A stretch of DNA of 64,000 nucleotides. It comes from Odiellus spinosus (lineage: Eukaryota > Arthropoda > Arachnida > Opiliones > Phalangiidae). The translations under genes and the position numbers were made by a program. The DNA lies in NCBI GenBank assembly GCA_963920705.1, contig OY987229.1:21829728-21893727 (forward strand), read 5' to 3'. This document shows positions 1,624 through 64,000 of this stretch, in pieces (the stretch's first letter is position 1; each line of letters starts with the position of its first letter). A model generated the notes under the pieces. It did no database searches and had not been told where the DNA came from. It saw only the letters and a list, made by a program, of their open reading frames with translations.

Positions 1624-3771
1624 ATGCATACCTTCAAGGAAGACGATTTTTTCATCCTCCCACTTAGTGTGTATGATGACAAAAATGTGGAATTTTTCAA
1701 AACAATTCGTCATAAGTGTGCCTATACGTATGACAGTGAGCCAGAGCAGGATAACAACGAAGACGCTATTGTTCCAGAGGAGAAAGGGAAACGAAGAATT
1801 GTCTCAAAGAAGGCTTCTGCGGGTAAAACAATGTACAAAAGACCCGTCAGTAGCAGGATTAAATTGCAAGCCAAGAAGAAAAGTTTCAACTTTGCTGCTG
1901 GCAAGAAAAGTAAATCAGTATCTCTAAAGCGAACTCTAAAAAACAATGATACCAAAAATGATAATGAGTTAAATATTGTTCCATCTTCTATAATTGAATC
2001 AGAAAATGACTCATCAGAACTTCCGGAAGCAGTGACTGATCCTCTTAGTAGCGACGTAGCTTCAGTATTATCACCATCAACAGAAAATTCGACCAAAGAT
2101 AACACCGAAGAAGAGATTGATTCGGATCGTATTGAAGAAGAAAATAATTCGGACAACACAGAAGAAGATAGTCATTCGAATAGATCCGACAAAGATGATG
2201 ATACAGATTGGATCCCTGTGGCTGCAAAGTTGAAATACGCGTGCGACCAGTGTGATAAATCATTCGCTTCTGATTTCGAATTGAGAAATCACAAAAAGTA
2301 TCATAACAAAGACAGACCATTTAAATGTCCAAAATGTGAAGCGTGCTTCAAATTGAAATCAATATTAAATGCCCATATCTTAATACACGAAGGAATTAAG
2401 CCTTTCAAATGCACTTATTGCGAATCCTCGTTTAGAATAAAATCGACTTTGAGGAAACATCTAATGACGCATACTGGAGAGAAACCACACCAGTGCGCTT
2501 ATTGCGGGTTTCGTACCAAGGTTAAAAGAGCTTTAGTAAATCACGAACGAATTCACACCAACGAACGTCCATTCGCTTGCGATCAGTGTGATATGAAATT
2601 CAGGTTGACTCATCATTTAAAGAACCACAAGTTAATTCATACTGGAGAGAAAGCGTACTTGTGTTCTACTTGTGGTAAGGAAAGCCGCCAATTAGCGCAT
2701 CATTTGAAGCACATAGCTATTCATAATAAATCACTTCAGAATCAACAAGTGACATGCGAAAAATGCAGTTTAACTTTCGATTCGGGTAAGGACTTAAAGA
2801 GTCATAACCAACAGGTTCACGAAGGAGGAAGTTCTTGGACATGTACCGAATGTTCCCGCGTTTTTCACAATTTAAACTCGTATAAAAGTCATAAACACCA
2901 AGCTCATTCTGAAAAAAAGCATCAGTGTGAAATATGCGGTTTGAAATGCAACAGCTTAGCTGTACTTAAAATACATGTTAGGACTCATACAGGTGAAAAG
3001 CCTTTCAAATGTAGTTTTTGTAACTACTCCGCAAATTTAAAAACAGCCATTAAACGCCACGAAACAATCCACACGGGTGAAAAACCTTTCCAATGTGAGA
3101 CGTGCGGGAAAGCCTTTCGAGTAAAAAGTCATTTGATAAGCCACGGTAACATCCATCTGGACGCGCGTCCTTTTAAATGCGAACAATGTGGCGACGCATT
3201 CAGGCAGCTCGCTCATCTCCTTCTCCACAAGAAAAGACACACGACTGATCTGCCCTTTTCTTGTGACGAGTGCGAAGCCTCATTCAGATTAAAGAAAGAA
3301 CTGAATAAGCATAAGATTCTGCATTTGACCAATAATCCCTTTAGATGCGATATTTGTGGATCAATTTTCCGGCTTAAGGAGCACTTGAAGCAACATTTGA
3401 AATCGCATCAAGATCTTCCCAAATGTTTCAAATGTGATCAGTGTGAATCGTCATTTACGCAACTTTCTCATTTGACGCAACATCAGAAATCTCATACTAA
3501 CGAACGACCTTTCAAGTGCCAACAGTGTCCATCAGCCTTCAGAACGAAGGCAAACTTAAAACGCCACGAATTGGGTCACATGAAGAAGAAGACTAATATT
3601 GTTGAAACTGATTCTCGAGTCAATTTACCAATAGTTAACGCTCCAATTGAGAATAACCCTATTGCTCATAGTGATACCACTGTTAGAGAAGACTTTGTTA
3701 TGAATCTCGCTACTGATAGCAATATATTTATAAACAGTTTTCAAAACTGGTCATCAAACTACCCTGGTTAA
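1624..3771 (+). CDS. C2H2 zinc-finger protein with 16 fingers, 715 aa
   Basis: Single uninterrupted exon. Residues ~55-105 are lysine/arginine rich and could act as a nuclear localisation region. Residues ~110-200 are acidic and Ser/Asp/Glu rich. Sixteen C2H2 fingers follow from about residue 205 to 652. Many are joined by TGEKP-like linkers (HTGEKPF, HTNERPF), which is typical of sequence-specific DNA binding. Fingers 6-8 are the most irregular in linker and spacing. The ~60-residue tail ends in SFQNWSSNYPG, shared with the upstream paralogue. No KRAB, BTB or ZAD domain is visible. The start is the first ATG of the long frame, shortly after a likely splice acceptor. Most likely a nuclear transcription factor from a lineage-specific expansion; target and role unknown. 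Confidence 0.93.
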   Translation: MHTFKEDDFFILPLSVYDDKNVEFFKTIRHKCAYTYDSEPEQDNNEDAIVPEEKGKRRIVSKKASAGKTMYKRPVSSRIKLQAKKKSFNFAAGKKSKSVSLKRTLKNNDTKNDNELNIVPSSIIESENDSSELPEAVTDPLSSDVASVLSPSTENSTKDNTEEEIDSDRIEEENNSDNTEEDSHSNRSDKDDDTDWIPVAAKLKYACDQCDKSFASDFELRNHKKYHNKDRPFKCPKCEACFKLKSILNAHILIHEGIKPFKCTYCESSFRIKSTLRKHLMTHTGEKPHQCAYCGFRTKVKRALVNHERIHTNERPFACDQCDMKFRLTHHLKNHKLIHTGEKAYLCSTCGKESRQLAHHLKHIAIHNKSLQNQQVTCEKCSLTFDSGKDLKSHNQQVHEGGSSWTCTECSRVFHNLNSYKSHKHQAHSEKKHQCEICGLKCNSLAVLKIHVRTHTGEKPFKCSFCNYSANLKTAIKRHETIHTGEKPFQCETCGKAFRVKSHLISHGNIHLDARPFKCEQCGDAFRQLAHLLLHKKRHTTDLPFSCDECEASFRLKKELNKHKILHLTNNPFRCDICGSIFRLKEHLKQHLKSHQDLPKCFKCDQCESSFTQLSHLTQHQKSHTNERPFKCQQCPSAFRTKANLKRHELGHMKKKTNIVETDSRVNLPIVNAPIENNPIAHSDTTVREDFVMNLATDSNIFINSFQNWSSNYPG

Positions 3772-6932: not shown

Positions 6933-8575
6933 TTATTTCTCTTGTCGTTTCGTTAATTTTATATAAATTCCATTTTTGGCGCTTAACACAAAACCGGACA
7001 TTTCAATCGTTAAAGGTACTTCAGTTTTCGAGCAAGGTTGGAGTTGAAAAGCCTTCAAGATTTTAATCAAGGCGATTTTCAATTGGATCTGGGCGAATCT
7101 CTTTCCGACGCAGTTTCTAGGTCCGAGTCCGAAAGGCAAAAATGAACCGGGCGTGATATTTCTTTTGTTTTCCACCGAGAAACGGTCGGGATCGAATTTT
7201 TCGGGGTTGGGCCACAAGTCGGAATTATGGTGAATATGCCAGATTGGAATCAACGCGTGAACTCCTCTGGGAATAAATACATCACCAATAATTACGTTTT
7301 TCTCCGGAGATCTTAACACTCCGAGTGGTGCTACCGTGAAAATTCTAAGTACGAAAAATAAAGATTCAGAATTAACTTTCTACTTAAGAAGTCGATGCCA
7401 ATTCCTCTTAAAGACGGAGATAGAAACGAATTTGTTTTAATTTACCTCATGATTTCGTTCAATGTTTGATCCAAATAAGTCAGTTCCCGAATTTGTTCGT
7501 AAGTCAGAGAGTCATCGTCGTCCTTCAAATTACTGACGATTTCTTGATATAGTTTCTCTTGAATGTCTTGATGTAGAGCTAAAAGATATATGGCGAAACC
7601 TAGGGTCGCCACCGTTGTCTCGTATCCGGCTAAGATAAAGAAGACACCATTTCCGATGATGCCGTCTTTGCTCATAGTTTTCTTAATGTCATTTTCTTTA
7701 CGCTCCTCCAATAAAATTTGCATCATATCCAATTGGCGTTTTTTCGGGTCCTTGAGACGTTTTTGCGCCAATTCATTTACGCTGATCACCATTCTTTGAA
7801 TCATGCGGCCGAAAAGGGTCATTCTATTAATTAAATCCAACGCCCATAATATAAATGGAAAAGCCTTGAATAATATCAAAACAAAGCTAATGGAATTGGC
7901 GGAAGAATATCTATACGCTTTTAACATTTCGTGTTGAGGGTTCATTTGACTGTTTAAATCCAAGCCCAATACGGACGAGGTAGTCACGTCCAACGTAAAA
8001 GCTTCCAGAAATTCTACAATATTGATATCATTTTCTAACACGCGTTCCTGTAGAATCTTGATTAATAGATTCGATTTTTCGGTAATGTCCTTGCAATATA
8101 CCTTGAGTTTGTTATTTCCAAAAGCCGGGTTCAAAATAGCCCGGTAATCGCGCCAAATTTGACCCTTTGCGTCAAAGATGTTGTCTTTGCAGTCCCTGAA
8201 AATAGATTCGCCGCTGTGTCGGTCAACAAAGTCGTTGAAACGGCTGACTGTGATTTCTTTCGCTAAATCGACGTCATTGATTACCAGGTGTGCTTGGTGG
8301 CCAATAAAGAATCCGAAAATATTTCCGTATTGTTTTAGCCATTCTGAAACTTTTTCGTGGGGTAATCGTCCCTCCGTTTTCAACTGTAGGATATTTCCAA
8401 AAAAGAGCGTAGGTTTTGGGCCAGGAATCGAGAGATTTTTGAACAGTTGTAGAAAACGATAATTTTTCACGATTTGGTAGATTATAAATAGAACAATCGT
8501 TGAAGCGATGCTGATCGAAAAGTATTCTACCAAAGAATTTTTAATGGTAGTTTCTTGAAACGAAATTAATACCAT
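6933..8575 (-). CDS. Cytochrome P450, CYP3 clan, 513 aa, two exons
   Basis: Exons 8575-7446 and 7344-6933; the intron (7445-7345) has GTAAA donor and TTAG acceptor and splits an Arg codon in phase 2. The protein would be a microsomal haem monooxygenase oxidising small hydrophobic substrates. It has an N-terminal membrane anchor (~18-35), a proline hinge PGPKP (51-55), the I-helix oxygen-binding motif AGYETT (316-321), the helix-K ExxR (E374, R377), a PERF-like DPDRF (428-432) and the haem loop PFGLGPRNCVGKR with ligand Cys455. The helix-L and C-terminal region resembles the CYP3A type. Length is normal for the family and no key residue is missing. The stop codon lies within an AATAAA (6932-6937). 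Substrate unknown; subfamily needs a tree. Confidence 0.94.
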
Positions 8576-47071: not shown

Positions 47072-47091
47072 CTAAACCAAATATATTATAT

Positions 47092-47450
47092 ATTTTCAAA
47101 GATTGTTTTATTTTCAAATGTTTTTTTATTTTCAAAGGGTGTTTTATTTTCAAAGGGTGTTTTATTTTCAAAGAGTGTTTTATTTTCAAAGGGTGTTTTA
47201 TTTTCAAAGGGTGTTTTGTTTTCAAAGGTTGTTTTGTTTTCAAAGGTTGTTTTATTTTCAATCGGTGTTTTATTTTCTATCGGTGTTTTATTTTCAAAAG
47301 TTTTGTTTTCAAAGGTTGTTTTATTTTCAAAGGTTGTTTTATTTTCAAAGGTTGTTTTATTTTCAAAGGTTGTTTTATTTTCAAAGGTTGTTTTATTTTC
47401 AAAGGTTGTTTTATTTTCAAATGTTGTTTTATTTTCAAAGGTTGTTTTAT
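47092..47450. repeat. 18-bp satellite, about 20 copies, abutting IR-G exon 4
   Basis: The unit is AAAGGTTGTTTTATTTTC, with a GGGTGTTTT variant in the first third. It starts about 20 bp upstream of the IR-G exon 4 acceptor. The GGGTGT plus T-run plus CAAA pattern resembles the 17-bp satellite further right (GGGGGTGTATTTTTACA), so it could be a distant relative. Stop-free frames across it (FENKTT repeats) are artefacts. Confidence 0.9.
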
Positions 47451-47461
47451 TATATATATAT

Positions 47462-47755
47462 AAGGGGTACCCCTTGTAAAAAAAAATCAATTATTTTTTA
47501 CAGAGGGTGTATTTATTATTATTTTTTTTACAGGGGGTGTATTTATTATTTTTTTTTTTTACAGTTGGTGTATTTATTATTTTATTATTATTTTTTTTTT
47601 TTACAGGAGTGTATTTATTATTATTTTTTTTTACAGGGGATGTATTTATTATTTTTTTTACAGGGGGTGAATTTATTATTTTTTTTACAGGGGGTGTATT
47701 TATTAAAAATCTATTATAATTTTTTTTACAAGGGGTACCCCTTGTAAAAAAAATT
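47462..47755. repeat. Irregular 17-bp-like units bounded by AAGGGGTACCCCTTG repeats
   Basis: About ten copies of TTTTTTACAGGGGGTGTATT are separated by variable TTATTATT filler, so the core equals the main satellite. The block is bounded on both sides by a direct repeat beginning AAGGGGTACCCCTTGTAAAA (47,471 region and 47,730 region). The right copy is part of a perfect 38-bp palindrome (47,718-47,755). Confidence 0.85.
47718..47755. repeat. Perfect 38-bp palindrome made of two head-to-head satellite-like units
   Basis: The left half is AATTTTTTTTACAAGGGGT and the right half is its exact complement. Each half resembles one 17-bp satellite unit, so the palindrome is a miniature of the strand switch at 56,445/56,446 with the same G-rich-strands-converging orientation. 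Confidence 0.9.
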
Positions 47756-47772
47756 CAATTATTATTATTTTA

Positions 47773-48500
47773 CAATCTCAATTTTCCAAATCTCAAAAAT
47801 CTCAATTTTCCAAATCTCAAAAATCTCAATTTTCCAAATCTCAAAAATCTCAATTTTCCAAATCTCAAAAATCTCAATTTTAAAAATCTCAAAAATCTCA
47901 ATTTTCTAAATCTCAAAAATCTCAATTTTAAAAATCTCAAAAATCTCAATTTTCCAAATCTCAAAAATCTCAATTTTAAAAATCTCAAAAATCTCAAATT
48001 TCCAAATCTCAAAAATCTCAATTTTAAAAATCTCAAAAATCTCAATTTTCCAAATCTCAAAAATCTCAATTATCCAAATCTCAAAAATCTCAATTATCCA
48101 AATCTCAAAAATCTCAATTTTCCAAATATCAAAAATCTCAATTTTCCAAATATCAAAAATCTCAATTTTCCATATCCCAAAAATCTCAATTATCCAAATC
48201 TCGAAAGTCTCAATTTTCCAAATCTCAAAAATCTCAATTTTCCAAATCTCAAAAATCTCAATTTTCCAAATCTCAAAAATCTCAATTTTCCAAATCTCAA
48301 AAATCTCAATTTTCCAAATCTCAAAAATCTCAATTTTCCAAATCTCAAAAATCTCAATTTTCCAAATCTCAAAAATCTCAATTTTCCAAATTTCAAAAAT
48401 CTCAATTTTCCAAATCTCAAAAATCTCAATTTTCCAAATCTCAAAAATCTCAATTTTCCAAATCTCAAAAATCTCAATTTTCCAAATCTCAAAAATCTCA
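47773..48500. repeat. 24-bp satellite, left flank
   Basis: The unit is CAATTTTCCAAATCTC followed by AAAAATCT, about 30 copies. TTTTAAAAATC variants alternate in the first third. Its reverse complement starts at 63,961 on the far side of the inverted block. Confidence 0.9.
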
Positions 48501-48655
48501 ATTTTCCAAATCTGAATTTTCCAAATCTCAATTTTCCCAATCTCAATTTTCCCAATCTCAATTTTCCCAATCTCAATTTTCCCAATCTCAATTTTCCAAA
48601 TCTCAATTTTCCCAATCTCAATTTTCCCAATCTCAATTTTCCCAATCTCAATTTT
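48501..48655. repeat. 15-bp satellite, left flank
   Basis: The unit is CCCAATCTCAATTTT, about ten copies. It is the 24-bp unit without its AAAAATCT part. It joins the 17-bp array directly (CTCAATTTT/CAGGGGGTG at 48,655/48,656). Confidence 0.9.
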
Positions 48656-51600
48656 CAGGGGGTGTATTTTTTCAGGGGGTGTATTTTTACAGGGGGTGTA
48701 TTTTTACAGGGGGTGTATTTTTACAGGGGGTGTTTTTTTACAGGGGAAGTATTTTTACAGGGGGTGTATTTTTACATAGGGTGTATTTTTTACAGGGGGT
48801 GTATTTTTTACAGGGGGTGTATTTTTTCAGGGGGTGTATTTTTTCAGGGGGTGTATTTTTACAGGGGGTGTATTTTTACAGGGGGTGTATTTTTACAGGG
48901 GGTGTATTTTTACAGGGGGTGTATTTTTACAGGGGGTGTATTTTTACAGGGGGTGTATTTTTACAGGGGGTTTATTTTTACAGGGGGTGTATTTTTTCAG
49001 GGGGTGTATTTTTACAGGGGGTGTATTTTTACAGGGGTGTATTTTTACAGGGGGTGTATTTTTACAGGGGAAGTATTTTTACAGGGGGTGTATTTTTACA
49101 TAGGGTGTATTTTTTACAGGGGGTGTATTTTTTACAGGGGGTGTATTTTTACAGGGGGTGTATTTTTTCAGGGGGTGTATTTTTACAGGGGGGGGATTTT
49201 TACAGGGGGTGTATTTTTACAGGGGGTGTATTTTTTACAGGGGGTGTATTTTTTACAGGGGGTGTATTTTTTCAGGGGGTGTATTTTTACAGGGGGTGTA
49301 TTTTTACAGGGGGTGTATTTTTACAGGGGGTGTATTTTTACAGGGGGTGTATTTTTACAGGGGGTGTATTTTTACAGGGGGTGTATTTTTACAGGGGGTG
49401 TATTTTTACAGGGGGTGTATTTTTACAGGGGGTGTATTTTTACAGGGGGTTTATTTTTACAGGGGGTGTATTTTTACAGGGGGTGTTTTTACAGGGGGTG
49501 TATTTTTACAGGGGGTGTATTTTTACAGGGGTGTATTTTTACAGGGGGTGTATTTTTACAGGGGGTGTATTTTTACAGGGGGTGTATTTTTACAGGGGAA
49601 GTATTTTTACAGGGGGTGTATTTTTACATAGGGTGTATTTTTTACAGGGGGTGTATTTTTTACAGGGGGTGTATTTTTTCAGGGGGTGTATTTTTTCAGG
49701 GGGTGTATTTTTACAGGGGGTGTATTTTTACAGGGGGTGTATTTTTACAGGGGGTGTATTTTTACAGGGGGTGTATTTTTACAGGGGGTGTATTTTTACA
49801 GGGGAAGTATTTTTACAGGGGGTGTATTTTAACATAGGGTGTATTTTTTACAGGGGGTGTATTTTTTACAGGGGGTGTATTTTTTCAGGGGGTGTATTTT
49901 TTCAGGGGGCGTATTTTTACAGGGGGTGTATTTTTACAGGGGGTGTATTTTTTACAGGGGGTGTATTTTTACAGGGGGTGTATTTTTTCAGGGGGTGTAT
50001 TTTTACAGGGGGTGTATTTTTACAGGGGTGTATTTTTACAGGGGGTGTATTTTTACAGGGGGTGTATTTTTAACAGGGGGTGTATTTTTTACAGGGGGTG
50101 TATTTTTTACAGGGGGTGTATTTTTACAGGGGGTGTATTTTTACAGGGGGTGTATTTTTACTGGGGGTATATTTTTCCAGGGGGTATATTTTTCCAGGGG
50201 GTATATTTTTCCAGTGGGTGTATTTTTCCAGGGGCTGTATTTTTCCAGGGGGTGTATTTTTCCAGGGGGTGTATTTTTCCAGGGGGTGTATTTTTCCAGG
50301 GGGTGTATTTTTCCAGGGGGTGTATTTTTCCAGGGGCTGTATTTTTCCAGGGGGTGTATTTTTCCAGGGGGTGTATTTTTCCAGGGGGTGTATTTTTCCA
50401 GGGGGTGTATTTTTACAGGGGGTGTATTTTTACAGGGGGTGTATTTTTTCAGGGGGTGTATTTTTTCAGGGGGTGTATTTTTACAGGGGGTGTATTTTTA
50501 CAGGGGGTGTATTTTTACAGGGGGTGTATTTTTACAGGGGGTGTATTTTTACAGGGGGTGTATTTTTACAGGGGGTGTATTTTTACAGGGGGTGTATTTT
50601 TACAGGGGGTGTATTTTTACAGGGGGTGTATTTTTCCAGGGGGTGTATTTTTCCAGGGGGTGTATTTTTCCAGTGGTGTATTTTTCCAGGGGGTGTATTT
50701 TTCCAGGGGGTGTATTTTTCCAGAGGGTGTATTTTTACAGGGGGTGTATTTTTACAGGGGGTGTATTTTTACAGGGGGTGTATTTTTACAGGGGGTGTAT
50801 TTTTACAGGGGGTGTATTTTTACAGGGGGTGTATTTTTACAGGGGGTGTATTTTTACAGGGGGTGTATTTTTACAGGGGGTGTATTTTTACAGGGGGTGT
50901 ATTTTTACAGGGGGTGTATTTTTCCAGGGGGTGTATTTTTCCAGGGGGTGTATTTTTCCAGGGGGTGCATTTTTCCAGGGGGTGCATTTTTCCAGGGGGT
51001 GTATTTTTCCAGGGGGTGTATTTTTCCAGGGGGTGTATTTTTCCAGGGGGTGTATTTTTCCTGGGGGTGTATTTTTACAGGGGGTGTATTTTTACAGGGG
51101 GTGTATTTTTACAGGGGGTGTATTTTTACAGGGGGTGTATTTTTACAGGGGGTGTATTTTTACAGGGGGTGTATTTTTACAGGGGGTGTATTTTTACAGG
51201 GGTGTATTTTTACAGGGGGTGTATTTTTTCAGGGGGTGTATTTTTACAGGGGGTGTATTTTTACAGGGGGTGTATTTTTAAAAGGGTGTATTTTTACAGG
51301 GGGTGTTTTTTACAGGGGGTTTATTTTTTACAGGGGGTGTATTTTTTCAGGGGGTGTATTTTTACAGGGGGTGTATTTTTACAGGGGGTGTATTTTTACA
51401 GGTGGTGTATTTTTACAGGGGGTGTATTTTTACAGGGGGTGTATTTTTACAGGGGGTGTATTTTTCCAGGGGGTGTATTTTTCCAGGGGGTGTATTTTTC
51501 CAGGGGGTGTATTTTTCCAGGGGGTGTATTTTTCCAGGGGGTGTATTTTTCCAGGGGGTGTATTTTTCCAGGGGGTGTATTTTTCCAGGGGGTGTATTTT

Positions 51601-54600
51601 TCCAGGGGGTGTATTTTTCCAGGGGGTGTATTTTTACAGGGGGTGTATTTTTCCAGGGGGTGTATTTTTACAGGGGGTGTATTTTTACAGGGGGTGTATT
51701 TTTACAGGGGGTGTATTTTTACAGGGGGTGTATTTTTACAGGGGGTGTATTTTTACAGGGGGTGTATTTTTACAGGGGGTGTATTTTTACAGGGGGTGTA
51801 TTTTTACAGGGGGTGTATTTTTACAGGGGGTGTATTTTTACAGGGGGTGTATTTTTCCAGGGGGTGTATTTTTCCAGGGGGTGTATTTTTCCAGGGGGTG
51901 TATTTTTACAGGGGGTGTATTTTTACAGGGGGTGTATTTTTACAGGGGGTGTATTTTTACAGGGGTTGTATTTTTACAGGGGGTGTATTTTTCCAGGGGG
52001 TGTATTTTTCCAGGGGGTGTATTTTTCCAGGGGGTGCATTTTTCCAGGGGGTGTATTTTTCCAGGGGGTGTATTTTTCCAGGGGGTGTATTTTTCCAGGG
52101 GGTGTATTTTTACAGGGGGTGTATTTTTACAGGGGGTGTATTTTTACAGGGGGTGTATTTTTAAAAGGGATGTATTTTTACAGGGGGTGTATTTTTACAG
52201 GGGGTGTATTTTTCCAGGGGGTGTATTTTTACAGGGGGTGTATTTTTACAGGGGGTGTATTTTTACAGGGGGTGTATTTTTTCAGGGGGTGTATTTTTAC
52301 AGGGGGTGTATTTTTACAGGGGGTGTATTTTTCCAGGGGGTGTATTTTTACAGGGGGTGTATTTTTACAGGGGGTGTATTTTTCCAGGGGGTGTATTTTT
52401 CCAGGGGGTGTATTTTTCCAGGGGGTGTATTTTTACAGGGGGTGTATTTTTACAGTGGGTGTATTTTTCCAGGGGGTGTATTTTTACAGGGGGTGTATTT
52501 TTACAGGGGGTGTATTTTTCCAGGGGGTGTATTTTTCCAGGGGGTGCATTTTTCCAGGGGTAGTATTTTTCCAGGGGGTGTATTTTTCCAGGGGGTGTAT
52601 TTTTCCAGGGGGTGTATTTTTACAGGGGGTGTATTTTTACAGGGGGTGTATTTTTACAGGGGGTGTATTTTTACAGGGGGTGTATTTTTACAGGGGGTGT
52701 ATTTTTACAGGGGGTGTATTTTTACAGGGGGTGTATTTTTACAGGGGGTGTATTTTTACAGGGGGTGTATTTTTACAGGGGGTGTATTTTTACAGGGGGT
52801 GTATTTTTACAGGGGGTGTATTTTTACAGGGGGTGTATTTTTTCAGGGGGTGTATTTTTACAGGGGGTGTATTTTTACAGGGGGTGTATTTTTACAGGGG
52901 GTGTATTTTTACAGGGGGTGTATTTTTACAGGGGGTTTATTTTTTACAGGGGGTGTATTTTTTCAGGGGGTGTATTTTTACAGGGGGTGTATTTTTACAG
53001 GGGGTGTATTTTTACAGGGGGTGTATTTTTACAGGGGGTGTATTTTTACAGGGGGTGTATTTTTACAGGGGGTGTATTTTTACAGGGGGTGTATTTTTAC
53101 AGGGGGTGTATTTTTCCAGGGGGTGTATTTTTACAGGGGGTGTATTTTTCCAGGGGGTGTATTTTTCCAGGGGGTGTATTTTTCCAGGGGGTGTATTTTT
53201 ACAGGGGGTGTATTTTTACAGGGGGTGTATTTTTACAGGGGGTGTATTTTTACAGGGGTTGTATTTTTACAGGGGGTGTATTTTTCCAGGGGGTGTATTT
53301 TTCCAGGGGGTGTATTTTTCCAGGGGGTGCATTTTTCCAGGGGGTGTATTTTTCCAGGGGGTGTATTTTTCCAGGGGGTGTATTTTTCCAGGGGGTGTAT
53401 TTTTACAGGGGGTGTATTTTTACAGGGGGTGTATTTTTACAGGGGGTGTATTTTTAAAAGGGATGTATTTTTACAGGGGGTGTATTTTTCCAGGGGGTGT
53501 ATTTTTCCAGGGGGTGTATTTTTACAGGGGGTGTATTTTTACAGGGGGTGTATTTTTACAGGGGGTGTATTTTTTCAGGGGGTGTATTTTTACAGGGGGT
53601 GTATTTTTACAGGGGGTGTATTTTTACAGGGGGTGTATTTTTACAGGGGGTGTATTTTTACAGGGGGTGTATTTTTCCAGGGGGTGTATTTTTCCAGGGG
53701 GTGTATTTTTACAGGGGGTGTATTTTTACAGGGGGTGTATTTTTACAGTGGGTGTATTTTTCCAGGGGGTGTATTTTTACAGGGGGTGTATTTTTACAGG
53801 GGGTGTATTTTTCCAGGGGGTGTATTTTTCCAGGGGGTGCATTTTTCCAGGGGTAGTATTTTTCCAGGGGGTGTATTTTTCCAGGGGGTGTATTTTTCCA
53901 GGGGGTGTATTTTTACAGGGGGTGTATTTTTACAGGGGGTGTATTTTTACAGGGGGTGTATTTTTACAGGGGGTGTATTTTTACAGGGGGTGTATTTTTA
54001 CAGGGGGTGTATTTTTACAGGGGGTGTATTTTTACAGGGGGTGTATTTTTACAGGGGGTGTATTTTTACAGGGGGTGTATTTTTACAGGGGGTGTATTTT
54101 TTCAGGGGGTGTATTTTTACAGGGGGTGTATTTTTACAGGGGGTGTATTTTTAAAAGGGTGTATTTTTACAGGGGGTGTTTTTTACAGGGGGTTTATTTT
54201 TTACAGGGGGTGTATTTTTTCAGGGGGTGTATTTTTACAGGGGGTGTATTTTTACAGGGGGTGTATTTTTACAGGGGGTGTATTTTTACAGGGGGTGTAT
54301 TTTTACAGGGGGTGTATTTTTACAGGGGGTGTATTTTTCCAGGGGGTGTATTTTTCCAGGGGGTGTATTTTTCCAGGGGGTGTATTTTTCCAGGGGGTGT
54401 ATTTTTCCAGGGGGTGTATTTTTCCAGGGGGTGTATTTTTTCAGGGGGTGTATTTTTACAGGGGGTGTATTTTTACAGGGGGTGTATTTTTACAGGGGGT
54501 GTATTTTTACAAGGGTGTATTTTTACAGGGGGTGTTTTTTACAGGGGGTGTATTTTTTACAGGGGGTGTATTTTTTACAGGGGGTGTATTTTTTACAGGG

Positions 54601-56445
54601 GGTGTATTTTTTCAGGGGATGTATTTTTACAGGGGGTGTATTTTTCCAGGGGGTGTATTTTTTCAGGGGGTGTATTTTTACAGGGGGTGTATTTTTACAG
54701 GGGGTGTATTTTTACAGGGGGTGTATTTTTACAAGGGTGTATTTTTACAGGGGGTGTTTTTTACAGGGGGTGTATTTTTTACAGGGGGTGTATTTTTTCA
54801 GGGGATGTATTTTTACAGGGGGTGTATTTTTCCAGGGGGTGTATTTTCCAGGGGGTGTATTTTTCCAGGGGGTGTATTTTTCCAGGGGGTGTATTTTTCC
54901 AGGGGGTGTATTTTTCCAGGGGGTGTATTTTTCCAGGGGGTGTATTTTTCCAGAGGGTGTATTTTTCCAGGGGGTGTATTTTTCCAGGGGGTGTATTTTT
55001 CCAGGGGGTGTATTTTTACAGGGGGTGTATTTTTACAGGGGGTGTATTTTTACAGGGGGTGTATTTTTACAGGAGGTGTATTTTTACAGGGGGTGTATTT
55101 TTACAGGGGGTGTATTTTTACAGGGGGTGTATTTTTACAGGGGGTGTATTTTTACAGGTAGTGTATTTTTACAGGGGGTGTATTTTTACAGGGGGTGTAT
55201 TTTTACAGGGGGTGTATTTTTACAGGGGGTGTATTTTTTCAGGGGGTGTATTTTTACAGGGGGTGTATTTTTACAGGGGGTGTATTTTTACAGGGGGTGT
55301 ATTTTTTCAAGGGGTGTATTTTTTCAAGGGGTGTATTTTTACAGGGGGTGTTTTTTACAGGGGGTGTATTTTTTACAGGGGGTGTATTTTTTACAGGGGG
55401 TGTATTTTTTCAGGGGGTGTATTTTTACAGGGGGTGTATTTCTTCAGGGGTGTATTTTTTCAGGGGGTGTATTTTTACAGGGGGTGTATTTTTACAGGGG
55501 GTGTATTTTTACAGGGGTGTATTTTTACAGGGGTGTATTTTTACAGGGGGTGTATTTTTACAGGGGGTGTATTTTTACAGGGGGTGTATTTTTACAGAGG
55601 GTGTATTTTTACAGAGGGTGTATTTTTACAGGGGGGTGTATTTTTACAGGGGGTGTATTTTTACAGGGGGTGTATTTTTACAGGGGGTGTATTTTTACAG
55701 GGGGTGTATTTTTACAGGGGGTGTATTTTTACAGGGGGTGTATTTTTACAGGGGGTGTATTTTTACAGGGGGTGTATTTTTACAGGGGGTGTATTTTTAC
55801 AGGGGTGTATTTTTACAGGGGGTGTATTTTTACAGGGGGTGTATTTTTACAGGGGGTGTATTTTTACAGGGGGTGTATTTTTACAGGGGGTGTATTTTTA
55901 CAGGGGGTGTATTTTTTCAGGGGGTGTATTTTTACAGGGGGTGTATTTTTACAGGGGGTGTATTTTTACAGGGGGTGTATTTTTACAGGGGGTGTATTTT
56001 TACAGGGGGTGTATTTTTCCAGGGGGTGTATTTTTACAGGGGGTGTATTTTTACAGGTTGTGTATTTTTACAGGGGGTGTATTTTTACAGGGGGTGTATT
56101 TTTACAGGGGGTGTATTTATACAGGGGGTGTATTTTTACAGGGGGTGTATTTTTACAGGGGGTGTATTTTTACAGGGGGTGTATTTTTACAGGGGGTGTA
56201 TTTTTACAGGGGGTGTATTTTTACAGGGGGTGTATTTTTACAGGGGGTGTATTTTTACAGGGGGTGTATTTTTACAGGGGGTGTATTTTTACAGGGGGTG
56301 TATTTTTACAGGGGGTGTATTTTTACAGGGGTGTATTTTTACAGGGGGTGTATTTTTACAGGGGGTGTATTTTTACAGGGGGTGTATTTTTACAGGGGGT
56401 GTATTTTTACAGGGGGTGTATTTTTACAGGGGGTGTATTTTTACA
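48656..56445 (+). repeat. 17-bp satellite, left arm (G-rich strand on +)
   Basis: About 7.8 kb of TTTTTACAGGGGGTGTA, roughly 450 units. Subtypes differ before the G run (TTTTTACAG, TTTTTCCAG, TTTTTTCAG) and cluster in blocks; CCAG dominates for example at 50,180-50,410. Rare variants mark higher-order repeats: AAAAGGGATG at ~52,166 and ~53,460, and AGGGGTAGTATT at ~52,556 and ~53,850, both 1,294 bp apart. GGGGAAGTATTTT followed by ACATAGGGTG occurs four times between 48,746 and 49,840. No stop codon exists in the + strand unit in any frame, which explains the very long open frames (up to 1,718 codons). Not protein-coding by any other sign. Confidence 0.97.
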
Positions 56446-59400
56446 TACACCCCCTGTAAAAAATACACCCCCTGTAAAAAATACACCCCCGGTATAAATA
56501 CACCCCCGGTATAAATACACCCCCTGTAAAAATACACAACCTGTAAAAATACACAACCTGTAAAAATACACCCCCTGTAAAAATACACCCCCTGTAAAAA
56601 TACACCCCCTGTAAAAATACACCCCCTGTAAAAATACACCCCCTGTAAAAATACACCCCCTGTAAAAATACACCCCCTGTAAAAATACACCCCCTGTAAA
56701 AATACACCCCCTGTGAAAATACACCCCCTGTAAAAATACACCCCCTGTAAAAATACACCCCCTGTAAAAATACACCACCTGTAAAAATACACCCCCTGTA
56801 AAAATACACCCCTGTAAAAATACACCCCCTGTAAAAATACACCCCCTGTAAAAATACACCCCCTGTAAAAATACACCCCCTGTAAAAATACACCCCCTGT
56901 AAAAATACACCCCCTGTAAAAATACACCCCCTGTAAAAATACACCCCCTGTAAAAATACACCCCCTGTAAAAATACACCCCTTGTAAAAATACACCCCCT
57001 GTAAAAATACACCCCCTGTAAAAATACACCCCCTGTAAAAATACACCCCCTGTAAAAATACACCCCCTGTAAAAATACACCCCCTGTAAAAACACACCCC
57101 CCTGTAAAAATACACCCCCTGTAAAAATACACCCTCTGTAAAAATACACCCCCTGTAAAAATACACCCCTGTAAAAATACACCACTGTAAAAATACACCC
57201 CTGTAAAAATACACCCCCTGTAAAAATACACCCCCTGAAAAAATACACCCCTGAAGAAGTACACCCCCTGTAAAAATACACCCCCTGAAAAAATACACCC
57301 CCTGTAAAAAATACACCCCCTGTAAAAAACACCCCCTGTAAAAATACACCCCTTGAAAAAATACACCCCTTGAAAAAATACACCCCCTGTAAAAATACAC
57401 CCCCTGTAAAAATACACCCCCTGAAAAAATACACCCCCTGTAAAAATACACCCCCTGTAAAAATACACCCCCTGTAAAAATACACCCCCTGTAAAAATAC
57501 ACCCCTGTAAAAATACACCCCCTGTAAAAATACACCCCCTGTAAAAAATACACCCCCTGTAAAAAATACACCCCCTGTAAAAATACACCCCCTGTAAAAA
57601 ATACACCCCCTGTAAAAATACACCCCCTGTAAAAATACACCCCCTGTAAAAATACACCCCCTGTAAAAATACACCCCCTGTAAAAATACACCCCCTGTAA
57701 AAATACACCCCCTGTAAAAATACACCCCCTGTAAAAATACACCCCCTGTAAAAATACACCCCCTGTAAAAATACACCCCCTGTAAAAATACACCCCCCTG
57801 TAAAAATACACCCCCTGTAAAAATACACCCCCTGTAAAAATACACCCCCTGTAAAAATACACCCCCTGTAAAAATACACCCCCTGTAAAAATACACCACC
57901 TGTAAAAATACACCCCCTGTAAAAATACACCCCCTGTAAAAATACACCCCCTGTAAAAATACACCCCCTGTAAAAATACACCCCCTGTAAAAATACACCC
58001 CTGTAAAAATACACCCCCTGTAAAAATACACCCCCTGTAAAAATACACCCCCTGTAAAAATACACCCCCTGTAAAAATACACCCCCTGTAAAAATACACC
58101 CCCTGTAAAAAATACACCCCCTGTAAAAAATACACCCCCTGTAAAAAATACACCCCCTGTAAAAAATACACCCCCTTTAAAAATACACCCCCAGTAAAAA
58201 TACACCCCCTGTAAAAATACACCCCCTGTAAAAATACACCCCCTGTAAAAATACACCCCCTGTAAAAAATACACCCCCTGTAAAAAATACACCCCCTGTA
58301 AAAATACACCCCCTGTAAAAATACACCCTCTGTAAAAATACACCCCCTGTAAAAATACACCCCCTGTAAAAATACACCCCCTGTAAAAATACACCCCCTG
58401 TAAAAATACACCCCCTGTAAAAATACACCCCCTGTAAAAATACACCCCTGTAAAAATACACCCCCTGTAAAAATACACCCCCTGTAAAAATACACCCCTG
58501 TAAAAATACACCCCCTGTAAAAATACACCCCCTGTAAAAATACACCCCCTGTAAAAATACACCCCCTGTAAAAATACACCCCCTGTAAAAATACACCCCC
58601 TGTAAAAATACACCCCCTGTAAAAATACACCCCCTGTAAAAATACACCCCCTGTAAAAATACACCCCCTGTAAAAATGCACCCCCTGTAAAAATGCACCC
58701 CCTGTAAAAATACACCCCCTGTAAAAATACACCCCCTGTAAAAATACACCCCCTGTAAAAATACACCCCCTGTAAAAATACACCCCCTGTAAAAATACAC
58801 CCCCCTGTAAAAATACACCCTCTGTAAAAATACACCCCCTGTAAAAATACACCCCTGTAAAAATAGACCCCTGTAAAAATACACCCCCTGTAAAAATACA
58901 CCCCCTGTAAAAATACACCCCCTGAAAAAATACACCCCTGAAGAAATACACCCCCTGTAAAAATACACCCCCTGAAAAAATACACCCCCTGTAAAAAATA
59001 CACCCCCTGTAAAAAACACCCCCTGTAAAAATACACCCCTTGAAAAAAAACACCCCTTGAAAAAATACACCCCCTGTAAAAATACACCCCCTGTAAAAAT
59101 ACACCCCCTGAAAAAATACACCCCCTGTAAAAATACACCCCCTGTAAAAATACACCCCCTGTAAAAATACACCCCCTGTAAAAATACACCCCCTGTAAAA
59201 ATACACCCCCTGTAAAAAATACACCCCCTGTAAAAATACACCCCCTGTAAAAAATACACCCCCTGTAAAAATACACCCCCTGTAAAAATACACCCCCTGT
59301 AAAAATACACCCCCTGTAAAAATACACCCCCTGTAAAAATACACCCCCTGTAAAAATACACCCCCTGTAAAAATACACCCCCTGTAAAAATACACCCCCT

Positions 59401-62400
59401 GTAAAAATACACCCCCTGTAAAAATACACCCCCGGTAAAAATACACCCCCTGTAAAAATACACCCCCTGTAAAAATACACCCCCTGTAAAAATACACCCC
59501 CTGTAAAAATACACCCCTGTAAAAATACACCCCCTGTAAAAATACACCCCCTGTAAAAATACACCCCCTGTAAAAATACACCCCCTGTAAAAATACACCC
59601 CCTGTAAAAATACACCCCCTGTAAAAAATACACCCCCTGTAAAAAATACACCCCCTGTAAAAAATACACCCCCTGTAAAAAATACACCCCCTGTAAAAAA
59701 TACACCCCCTGTAAAAAATACACCCCCTGTAAAAATACACCCCCTGTAAAAATACACAATCTGTAAAAATACACAACCTGTAAAAATACACCCCCTGTAA
59801 AAATACACCCCCTGTAAAAATACACCCCCTGTAAAAATACACCCCCTGTAAAAATACACCCCCTGTAAAAATACACCCCCTGGAAAAATACACCCCCTGG
59901 AAAAATACACCCCCTGGAAAAATACACCCCCTGGAAAAATACACCCCCTGGAAAAATACACCCCCTGGAAAAATACACCCCCTGGAAAAATACACCCCCT
60001 GGAAAAATACACCCCCTGGAAAAATACACCCCCTGGAAAAATACACCCCCTGGAAAAATACACCCCCTGTAAAAATACACCCCCTGTAAAAATACACCCC
60101 CTGTAAAAATACTTCCCCTGTAAAAATACACCCCCTGTAAAAATTCACCCCCTGTAAAAATACACCCCCTGTAAAAATACACCCCCTGTAAAAATACACC
60201 CCCTGTAAAAATACACCCCCTGTAAAAATACACCCCCTGTAAAAATACACCCCCTGTAAAATACACCCCCTGTAAAAATACACCCCCTGTAAAAATACAC
60301 CCCCTGTAAAAATACACCCCCTGGAAAAATACACCCCCTGGAAAAATACACCCCTGTAAAAATACACCCCCTGTAAAAATACACCCCCTGTAAAAATACA
60401 CCCACTGTAAAAATACACCCCTGTAAAAATACACAACCTGTAAAAATACACCCCCTGTAAAAATATACCCCCTGTAAAAATATACCCCCTGTAAAAATAC
60501 ACCCCCTGTAAAAATACACCCCCTGTAAAAATACACCCCCTGTAAAAATACACCCCCTGTAAAAATACACCCCTGTAAAAATACACAACCTGTAAAAATA
60601 CACCCCTGTAAAAATACACCCCCTGTAAAAATATACCCCCTGTAAAAATATACCCCCTGGAAAAATACACCCCCTGGAAAAATACACCCCTGTAAAAATA
60701 CACCCCCTGTAAAAATACACCCCCTGTAAAAATACACCCCTGTAAAAATACACAACCTGTAAAAATACACCCCTGTAAAAATACACCCCCTGAAAAAATA
60801 TACCCCCTGTAAAAATATACCCCCTGTAAAAATATACCCCCTGTAAAAATACACCCCCTGTAAAAATACACCCCCTGTAAAAATACACCCCCTGTAAAAA
60901 TACACCCCCTGTAAAAATACACCCACTGTAAAAATACACCCCTGTAAAAATACACAACCTGTAAAAATACACCCCCTGTAAAAATATACCCCCTGTAAAA
61001 ATATACCCCCTGTAAAAATACACCCCCTGTAAAAATACACCCCCTGTAAAAATACACCCCCTGTAAAAATACACCCCCTGTAAAAATACACCCCTGTAAA
61101 AATACACAACCTGTAAAAATACACCCCTGTAAAAATACACCCCCTGTAAAAATATACCCCCTGTAAAAATATACCCCCTGGAAAAATACACCCCCTGGAA
61201 AAATACACCCCTGTAAAAATACACCCCCTGTAAAAATACACCCCCTGTAAAAATACACCCCTGTAAAAATACACAACCTGTAAAAATACACCCCTGTAAA
61301 AATACACCCCCTGAAAAAATATACCCCCTGTAAAAATATACCCCCTGTAAAAATATACCCCCTGTAAAAATACACCCCCTGTAAAAATACACCCCCTGTA
61401 AAAATACACCCCCTGTAAAAATACACCCCCTGTAAAAATACACCCTCTGTAAAAATACACCCCCCCTGTAAAAATACACCCCCTGTAAAAATACACCCCC
61501 TGTAAAAATACACCCCCTGTAAAAATACACCCCCTGTAAAAATACACCCCCTGTAAAAATACACCCCCTGAAAAACACACCCCCTGTAAAAATACACCCC
61601 TTGTAAAAATACACCCCCTGTAAAAATACACCCCCTGTAAAAATACACAACCTGTAAAAATACACCCCCTGTAAAAATACACCCCCTGTAAAAATACACC
61701 CCCTGTAAAAATACACCCCTTGAAAAAATACACCCCCTGTAAAAATCCACCCCTTGTAAAAATCCACCTCCTGTAAAAATCCACCTCCTGTAAAAATCAA
61801 CCCCCTGTAAAAATACACCCCCTGAAAAAATACACCCCCTGAAAAAATCCACCCCCTGAAAAAATCCACCCCCTGAAAAAATACACCCCCTGAAAAAATA
61901 CACCCCCTGAAAAAATACACCCCCTGTAAAAATACACCCCCTGTAAAAATACACCCCCTGTAAAAATACACCCCCTGAAAAAATACACCCCCTGAAAAAA
62001 TACACCCCCTGTAAAAAATACACCCCCTGTAAAAAATACACCCCCTGTAAAAATACACCCCCTGTAAAAATACACCCCCTGTAAAAATACACCCCCTGTA
62101 AAAAAACACCCCTTGTAAAAATACACCCCCTGTAAAAATACACCCCCTGTAAAAATACACCCCCTGTAAAAATACACCCCCTGTAAAAATACACCCCCTG
62201 TAAAAATACACCCCCTGTAAAAATACACCCCCTGTATAAATACACCCCCTGTAGAAATACACCCCCTGTAAAAATACACCCCCTGTAAAAATACACCCCC
62301 TGTAAAAATACACCCCCCTGTAAAAATACACCCCCTGTAAAAATACACCCCCTGTAAAAATACACCCCCTGTAAAAATACACCCCCTGTAAAAATACACC

Positions 62401-63490
62401 CCCTGTAAAAATACACCCCCTGTAAAAATACACCCCCTGTAAAAGTACACCCCCTGTAAAAGTACACCCCCTGTAAAAATACACCCCTTGTAAAAATACA
62501 CCCCCTGTAAAAGTACACCCCCAGTAAAAATACACCCCCTGTAAAAATACACCCCCTGTAAAAATACACCCCCTGTAAAAATACACCCCCTGTAAAAATA
62601 CACCCCCTGTAAAAATACACCCCCTGTAAAAATACACCCCCTGTAAAAATACACCACCTGTAAAAATACACCCCCTGTAAAAATACACCCCCTGTAAAAA
62701 TACACCCCCTGTAAAAATACACCCCCTGTAAAAATACACCGCCTGTAAAAATACACCCCCTGTAAAAATACACCCCCTGTAAAAATACACCCCCTGTAAA
62801 AATACACCCCCTGTAAAAATACACCCCCTGTAAAAATACACCCCCTGTAAAAATACACCCCCTGTAAAAATACACCCCCTGTAAAAATACACCCCCTGTA
62901 AAAATACACCCCCTGTAAAAATACACCCCCTGTAAAAGTACACCCCCTGTAAAAGTACACCCCCTGTAAAAATACACCCCTTGTAAAAGTACACCCCCTG
63001 TAAAAATACACCCCCTGTAAAAATACACCCCCTGTAAAAATACACCCCCTGTAAAAATACACCCCCTGTAAAAATACACCCCCTGTAAAAATACACCCCC
63101 TGTAAAAATACACCCCCTGGAAAAATACACCCCCTGTAAAAATACACCCCCTGTAAAAATACTTCCCCTGTAAAAATACACCCCCTGTAAAAATACACCC
63201 CCTGTAAAAATACACCCCCTGAAAAAATACACCCCCTGTAAAAATACACCCCCTGTAAAAATACACCCCCTGTAAAAATACACCCCCTGTAAAAATACAC
63301 CCCCTGTATAAATACACCCCTGTATAAATACACCCCTGTATAAATACACCCCCTGTATAAATACACCCCCTGTATAAATACACCCCCTGTAAAAATACAC
63401 CCCCTGTAAAAATACACCCCCTGTAAAAATACACCCCCTGTAAAAATACACCCCCTGTAAAAATACACCCCCTGTAAAAATACACCCCCT
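56446..63490 (-). repeat. 17-bp satellite, right arm (G-rich strand on -)
   Basis: About 7.0 kb of the same unit in reverse complement (TACACCCCCTGTAAAAA), roughly 410 copies. A ~1,690-bp higher-order repeat is marked by CACCCCTGAAGAA at ~57,246 and ~58,932 and by CACCCCTTGAAAAA pairs after each. A ~520-bp higher-order repeat between ~60,430 and ~61,470 is marked by ACACAACCTG and TATACCCCC variants. CCTGG (CCAG subtype) units cluster at 59,880-60,060. Open frames of up to 2,336 codons on the - strand are by-products of the stop-free unit. It ends at CACCCCCT/AGAAAATGG. Confidence 0.97.
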
Positions 63491-63960
63491 AGAAAATGGA
63501 GATTTGGAAAATGGAGATTTGGAAAATGGAGATTTGGAAAATGGAGATTTGGAAAATTGAGATTTGGAAAATTGAGATTTGGAAAATTGAGATTTGGAAA
63601 ATTGAGATTGGGAAAATTGAGATTGGGAAAATTGAGATTGGGAAAATTGAGATTGGGAAAATTGAGATTGGGAAAATTGAGATTGGGAAAATTGAGATTG
63701 GGAAAATTGAGATTGGGAAAATTGAGATTGGGAAAATTGAGATTGGGAAAATTGAGATTGGGAAAATTGAGATTGGGAAAATTGAGATTGGGAAAATTGA
63801 GATTGGAAAAATTGAGATTGGGAAAATTGAGATTTGGAAAATTGAGATTTGGAAAATTGAGATTTGGAAAATTGAGATTTGAAAAATTGAGATTTGAAAA
63901 ACTGAGATTGGGAAAATTGAGATTTGGAAAATTAAGATTGGGAAAATTGAGATTTGGAAA
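63491..63960. repeat. 15-bp satellite, right flank
   Basis: AAAATTGAGATTGGG and AAAATTGAGATTTGG units, about 31 copies, reverse complement of the block at 48,501-48,655. The first few units read AAAATGGAG. Confidence 0.92.
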
Positions 63961-64000
63961 ATTGAGATTTTTGAGATTTGGAAAATTGAGATTTTTGAGA
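63961..64000. repeat. 24-bp satellite, right flank (runs off the window)
   Basis: GAGATTTTTGAGATTTGG begins here, the reverse complement of the 24-bp unit at 47,773-48,500. Only about two units are visible before the window ends. Confidence 0.8.

Follow-up and report, generated by a model that had tools for sequence, protein, structure and literature searches.

Mirrored satellite layers and head-to-head strand polarity at dispersed loci of the Odiellus spinosus genome

Satellite arrays are usually thought to be able to point either way. The closest pattern that we found in print is the macro-dyad symmetry of Tribolium: in T. madens, T. freemani and T. castaneum, according to the portions of that report drawn on here, satellite arrays are built for the most part from a pair of inverted subarrays, with lengths from kilobases to tens of kilobases, in which more than one satellite is intermingled (PMC13081366). 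Their units are derived from a ~110-bp sequence and occupy multi-megabase putative (peri)centromeric regions, the inversion sites are 98-99% conserved, and the authors state that the arrays were verified with HiFi reads and propose that they form hairpins or cruciforms (PMC13081366). Tetris of Drosophila virilis, as described in sections of its report, combines repeats of ~220 bp with a middle domain and target-site duplications of 8-10 bp, and its arms can seed satellites (PMC4079207). In yeast, foldback priming at short inverted repeats leads, in the part of the report used here, to an inverted duplication and a dicentric inversion chromosome (PMC10622511). In this study, we analysed a 64,000-bp stretch of the Odiellus spinosus genome (443 Mb, TTAGG telomeres), C5:21829728-21893727, hereafter the window, which holds a satellite block of about 18 kb made of short tandem repeats whose strand flips at a single point. 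This block belongs to a class found genome-wide and is not a single rearrangement.

The switch lies at 56,445/56,446 and is head-to-head, with GTATTTTTACA immediately before and TACACCCCC immediately after it. Outward from it, Tandem Repeats Finder called on either side a 17-bp, then a 15-bp and then a 24-bp satellite, in opposite orientation. The left arm, on the plus strand, comprises the 24-bp satellite (47,774-48,513), the 15-bp satellite (48,494-48,656, called as period 30) and 458 copies of the 17-bp unit CAGGGGGTGTATTTTTA (48,652-56,445); the right arm, on the minus strand, comprises 415 copies of the 17-bp unit (56,445-63,490), the 15-bp satellite (63,492-63,969) and the 24-bp satellite (63,947-64,000, and on past the window to C5:21894778). 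The word ACAGGGGGTGTA occurs 277 times left of 56,445 and 0 times right of it, TACACCCCCTGT 0 times left and 284 times right, and the two 17-bp arms have opposite G-C skews, +0.65 (left) and -0.69 (right), with the G-rich strand on plus in the left arm and on minus in the right one. The mirrored 17/15/24-bp order that the initial annotation had described is therefore borne out in the assembly by repeat calls and word counts; the border strings it quoted for the two 17-bp/15-bp junctions are present, and the borders are alike.

The same polarity was observed across the genome. A genome search with a 301-base query spanning the switch gave full-query matches elsewhere, and twenty 10-kb pieces were taken. 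The 11 blocks read at length are those, the window included, with the switch inside the piece, so that most were found via the switch itself; C5:24.08 Mb, which is plus only across its 10 kb, was left out (L028). In 11/11 of these blocks the motif runs are plus in the left arm and minus in the right, and the layer order is mirrored, partly or wholly; at C11:21.03 Mb, for example, the layers read 17, 22, 15, 24 and 18 leftward and 17, 22, 16 and 24 rightward. Cores of the 17-bp unit number 1969 plus and 3 minus in the left arms and 8 plus and 2509 minus in the right arms of the 11 blocks, and the plus:minus ratios in the left and right arms are 246:0 and 0:336 for the 15/24-bp unit, 364:0 and 0:367 for the 22-bp unit and 97:0 and 0:28 for the 18-bp unit. 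All nine further head-to-head matches (L029-L037, selected for the switch) agree, with 299:0 on the left and 1:375 on the right. For eight loci whose listed matches covered one arm only, five samples of 300 bases were taken per locus (40 probes; many outer ones lay outside the block and two, at L062 and L083, across a switch), and the arrays were plus left and minus right in 8/8. Plus was likewise followed by minus in 2/2 unselected C1 loci listed whole in a search for direct pairs of the core, the third C1 locus of that search being plus as far as listed, and in 6/6 loci with both strands among the 15-/17-bp neighbour matches listed. Blocks measure about 4 to at least 18 kb and occupy many chromosome places: switches span 0.86 to 14.4 Mb on C2 and 9.3 to 29.0 Mb on C3, and the window block adjoins a receptor-gene cluster.

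Junction counts point the same way. Genome-wide, neighbouring exact 17-bp cores (raw matches, with repeated counting of nested ones) change strand within 30 bp at 155 head-to-head and 13 tail-to-tail positions and at 31-60 bp at 279 and 27 positions, respectively, and control patterns read backward gave 0 matches. On C1-C4, for which the listings of both junction kinds are complete at this distance, 43 head-to-head and 4 tail-to-tail junctions lie within 30 bp once nested rows are merged; under equal likelihood this has a binomial P of about 1e-9, which is optimistic because of junctions that are mutual copies. Ordinary inversion within an array would yield both kinds of junction equally and was therefore rejected as the source of most blocks. 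Neighbouring 15-bp and 17-bp units are co-oriented in 471 + 497 = 968 matches and opposed in 4 + 14 = 18. At the loci examined, head-to-head polarity has few exceptions, also where unlike units are compared. A search for direct pairs of the 17-bp core matched 82,146 times, 31,319 on plus and 50,827 on minus, and right arms may be larger in the assembly.

One exception is C3:27.05 Mb (C3:27051850-27060820), where five head-to-head junctions and four tail-to-tail ones, mostly spaced by about 2 kb, form an alternating palindrome series of about 9 kb; a junction of this series was found again at C3:28.42 Mb. Besides, one inverted unit lies within a plus array at C14:12.52 Mb (L038), a junction is repeated at C3:16.23 Mb (L029), and the right arm at C5:24.42 Mb holds five plus cores.

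At the window locus, the outer parts of the block are composite. The outermost left layer is an 18-bp satellite, TATTTTCAAAGGTTGTTT (47,091-47,451, plus), which is followed inward by a palindrome with the core AAGGGGTACCCCTT (hereafter P; 47,462-47,475), by degenerate repeats of 27-30 bp related to the 17-bp unit (ACAGGGGGTGTATTTATTATT...; 47,494-47,705, plus) and by a second P (47,730-47,743). On the right, a cluster of AAGGGGTACCCCTT-like palindromes follows the 24-bp array to about C5:21895214, and the block ends about 1.5 kb past the window; P lies outside the 24-bp array on both sides (left copies at 47,462 and 47,730). The 26-bp palindrome around the P core has 3467 exact copies genome-wide; at C1:0.19-2.7 Mb its clusters stand, among the matches listed (seven intervals), about 0.2-0.54 Mb apart, a spacing that is perhaps regular and that we do not claim to be so. 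A recurrence in reverse of the 18-bp satellite or of the receptor exon, raised in the initial annotation, was not seen on extension to the right: the next 20 kb contained no 18-bp array and none of its words of 11 to 15 bases, nor did the exon have a match there, and the 18.5 kb past the right P cluster held no more arrays of these satellite families. Since the 18-bp satellite and the receptor exon do not recur on the right, the mirror symmetry is that of the satellite block only, flanks not included. The three satellites had also been described as unrelated-looking. By its sequence the 15/24-bp unit indeed appears to be the odd one out, while the AAGGGGTACCCCTT palindrome and the units of 17, 18 and 22 bp seem to belong to a single family, with a shared plan of T-run, CA or CAA, G-run and TG.

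Whether the arms are copies of each other was addressed with rare words. The window arms have 255 single-copy 40-mers in common, of 2098 on the left and 2963 on the right. When informative four-unit words were compared in mirror and in reversed order, 10 were common in mirror order and 0 reversed; of these ten, none occurs in the right arms and at most one per left arm in the 10 other blocks, and one group of words is placed nearly symmetrically, at about 1.05 kb on the left and 0.85 kb on the right. The 10:0 words, near-absent from other blocks, argue that inverted copying between the window arms, or later exchange, did occur. To this extent the large inverted duplication proposed in the initial annotation stands; a recent or local event is unsupported, given the 255 shared 40-mers, the single flanks and the same polarity at the other loci examined, and near-identical collinear arms, the sign of a recent inverted duplication, were not found at the window. 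Other loci gave 0-3 words in mirror and 0-1 in reversed order. The commonest spacer beside the switch is alike in both arms at 16/20 loci (two by tie), which is weak evidence wherever that spacer is the genome's commonest. At C1:29.54 Mb (L032, C1:29541001-29544000) the arms beside the switch consist of two plainly different units with one core, and the arm units differ less at L030, L034 and C3:29.00. Short CCCCT-rich pieces break up the left arm of L032 at several points. From the few shared words and 40-mers and the spacer comparison, the copying or founding symmetry looks old and the arms appear to have drifted. Local alignment of mirrored arms as unit strings brought little or no gain over the reversed-order control (59 vs 55 at the window, 40 vs 46 at C3:29.00), and at several loci the right arm of another block scored above the block's own; this approach was uninformative because runs of a single variant align either way. 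Layered expansion from the centre outward was not favoured either, as local homogeneity showed by eye no clear symmetric trend outward from the switch.

The array folds into one TGTA/TACA hairpin per unit on either strand and beats 200/200 shuffles in doing so, and the switch folds into a long hairpin. An exact snap-back product at the TGTA-TTTT-TACA hairpin of the unit is present at 7/43 of the C1-C4 junctions, these being among the 13/43 with perfect stems and loops of at most 8; the commonest junction sequence also accounts for 7/43. Two C1 loci with longer, looser units (L095, L096) have a P palindrome at the switch, which at one of them is flanked by a matched mirrored seam.

That so many loci nearly always flip in the same direction suggests a shared palindromic origin over a local accident. 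We propose, with a probability of roughly 0.47, i.e. slightly below even, that the window block belongs to a dispersed class of satellite loci, palindromic ('convergent') in build, that arose from a palindromic founder with orientation-keeping turnover; this reading is drawn from the polarity together with the drifted arms. The co-orientation of unlike satellites, the mirror-order words at the window, the spacers common to both arms, the P-centred switches of the two C1 loci and the snap-back junctions also speak for it. At each locus the start would be a palindrome of short or medium length, which either was copied from a head-to-head seed (TTTTACAAGGGGTACCCCTTGTAAAA is an example) or came from a foldback inverted duplication whose copying ran back across the array borders. 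Arms would then grow and turn over by slippage, unequal exchange and homology-guided copying between blocks, with orientation preserved. Potentially, left-arm units would thereby stay rightward-pointing and right-arm units leftward-pointing and the mirror order of the layers would be kept, but over time the arms would come to differ in length, in variants and sometimes in unit family. Several observations weigh against this proposal. The 43 head-to-head positions on C1-C4 carry 31 distinct junction sequences, and the first six spacer bases are equal on both sides at just 5/32 junctions with a gap of at least 12; most seams are therefore not simple mirror copies. No mirror-order word is common to the arms at 6/11 loci, none of the 11 blocks read at length has P at the switch (there it occurs in outer parts only), and the half seam of the P-centred loci has 7 matches at four places. 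By eye, the edges of eight loci, not all of them both-sided, show no common block terminus. The lock is also looser in outer palindrome zones: the one on the right at C4:14.60 Mb contains plus-sense core relatives, and two such relatives lie amid P palindromes at the right outer edge of C6:18.88-18.89 Mb (L069).

Alternatively, the blocks might be copies of a non-autonomous DNA transposon of the foldback type, whose long terminal inverted repeats made of tandem arrays later expanded to satellites. We regard this as a doubtful possibility. The inverted arms made of tandem repeats, the variable arm lengths and the dispersal would all fit, and Tetris, in the portions of its description used here, provides a precedent (PMC4079207); against it, the edges of eight loci revealed by eye neither shared ends nor target-site duplications (no systematic search for duplications was made), the listed switches are without a middle domain, and there is no conserved centre. 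A single recent local inverted duplication of the 9-kb array, the view of the initial annotation, would account for the mirror order, the 10:0 common words and the alike borders. It is largely refuted by the recurrence across the genome, the few long words in common and the flanks that are not duplicated, and we consider it very improbable. An assembly or read artefact, such as a missed adapter or a chimeric palindromic read, deserves mention as the switch is known from the assembly alone; it is hardly credible for arms that differ in length and variants, at L032 even in unit, and whose outer flanks are unmirrored. A telomere fusion was ruled out, the telomeres being TTAGG and the arms not telomeric repeat. 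TTAGG or CCTAA was found at one end of 7/8 large contigs (last 1.5 kb of each end): at the right end in six, the left end in one and neither in one. In six of these seven contigs the opposite end lacks a long telomeric run, and in one (C2) it reads N; the single telomeric ends would be accounted for by chromosomes with one arm or by centromere ends that are unfinished.

It is also conceivable, though unlikely, that replication, or a polar factor bound to the DNA, sets the polarity, with the switch at an initiation or termination zone. Arrays might grow or survive only with the G-rich strand on one template, or the core might act as a one-way fork barrier that forms a convergent trap, and unlike satellites would be locked by their common local fork direction. 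A parallel is the G-rich minisatellite CEB1, which in yeast reportedly shows orientation-dependent instability. In keeping with this reading, every unit contains five consecutive G's, and the polarity lock covers unlike units, including the arms of different units at L032, and spans the 31 junction sequences that are mostly not mirror copies. On the other hand, anti-oriented units exist (11/4489 cores, 18/986 mixed pairs), C3:27.05 Mb alternates, and the 16/20 loci with a common commonest spacer are simpler under common descent. That the strand-polar system as a whole records or imposes local replication direction, e.g. by facing one-way fork barriers, with switches marking initiation or termination zones, is in our judgement improbable. 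Replication-directed growth would be a more surprising outcome than a palindromic founder. Were polarity to follow fork direction, the sequence itself would constitute a replication map of the animal. Head-to-head polarity between unlike units provides natural replicates for the questions of how palindromic arrays start and why they are not destroyed, and these replicates also bear on whether array direction reflects descent or replication.

Elsewhere in the window, named by sequence appearance, are a zinc-finger gene (1624-3771), P450-like exons (6933-8575) and an ionotropic-receptor-like exon family (12,782-46,137, minus strand); one receptor exon has seven tblastn matches in the window, itself counted. 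A dispersed repeat of ~340 bp with a MITE-like look, in both orientations and 92-96% identical among the matches listed, lies at about 28.8, 43.7, 45.2 and 46.3 kb, with several copies in the right flank.

For the unit sequence, no match was found in the open literature searched, and the one further paper there with the term 'macro-dyad' does no more than cite the Tribolium report. With respect to arrangement, and judged by the portions of the reports cited above, the class resembles yeast foldback products in that 7/43 junctions would permit such priming, and differs from them in that the blocks are interstitial with drifted arms, whereas the yeast product is dicentric (PMC10622511). Like Tetris and foldback transposons, it has inverted arms made of tandem repeats; unlike Tetris, no fixed ends were seen (PMC4079207). 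A conserved inversion site of the Tribolium type was not observed. With the Tribolium arrays, as far as that report was drawn on, the loci share two oppositely oriented subarrays and the presence of several satellites together (PMC13081366). They differ in unit size (15-24 bp here), in junction diversity (31/43), in their layered satellites with a measured head-to-head bias and, as far as can be told, in place, the blocks of O. spinosus being dispersed along the chromosomes.

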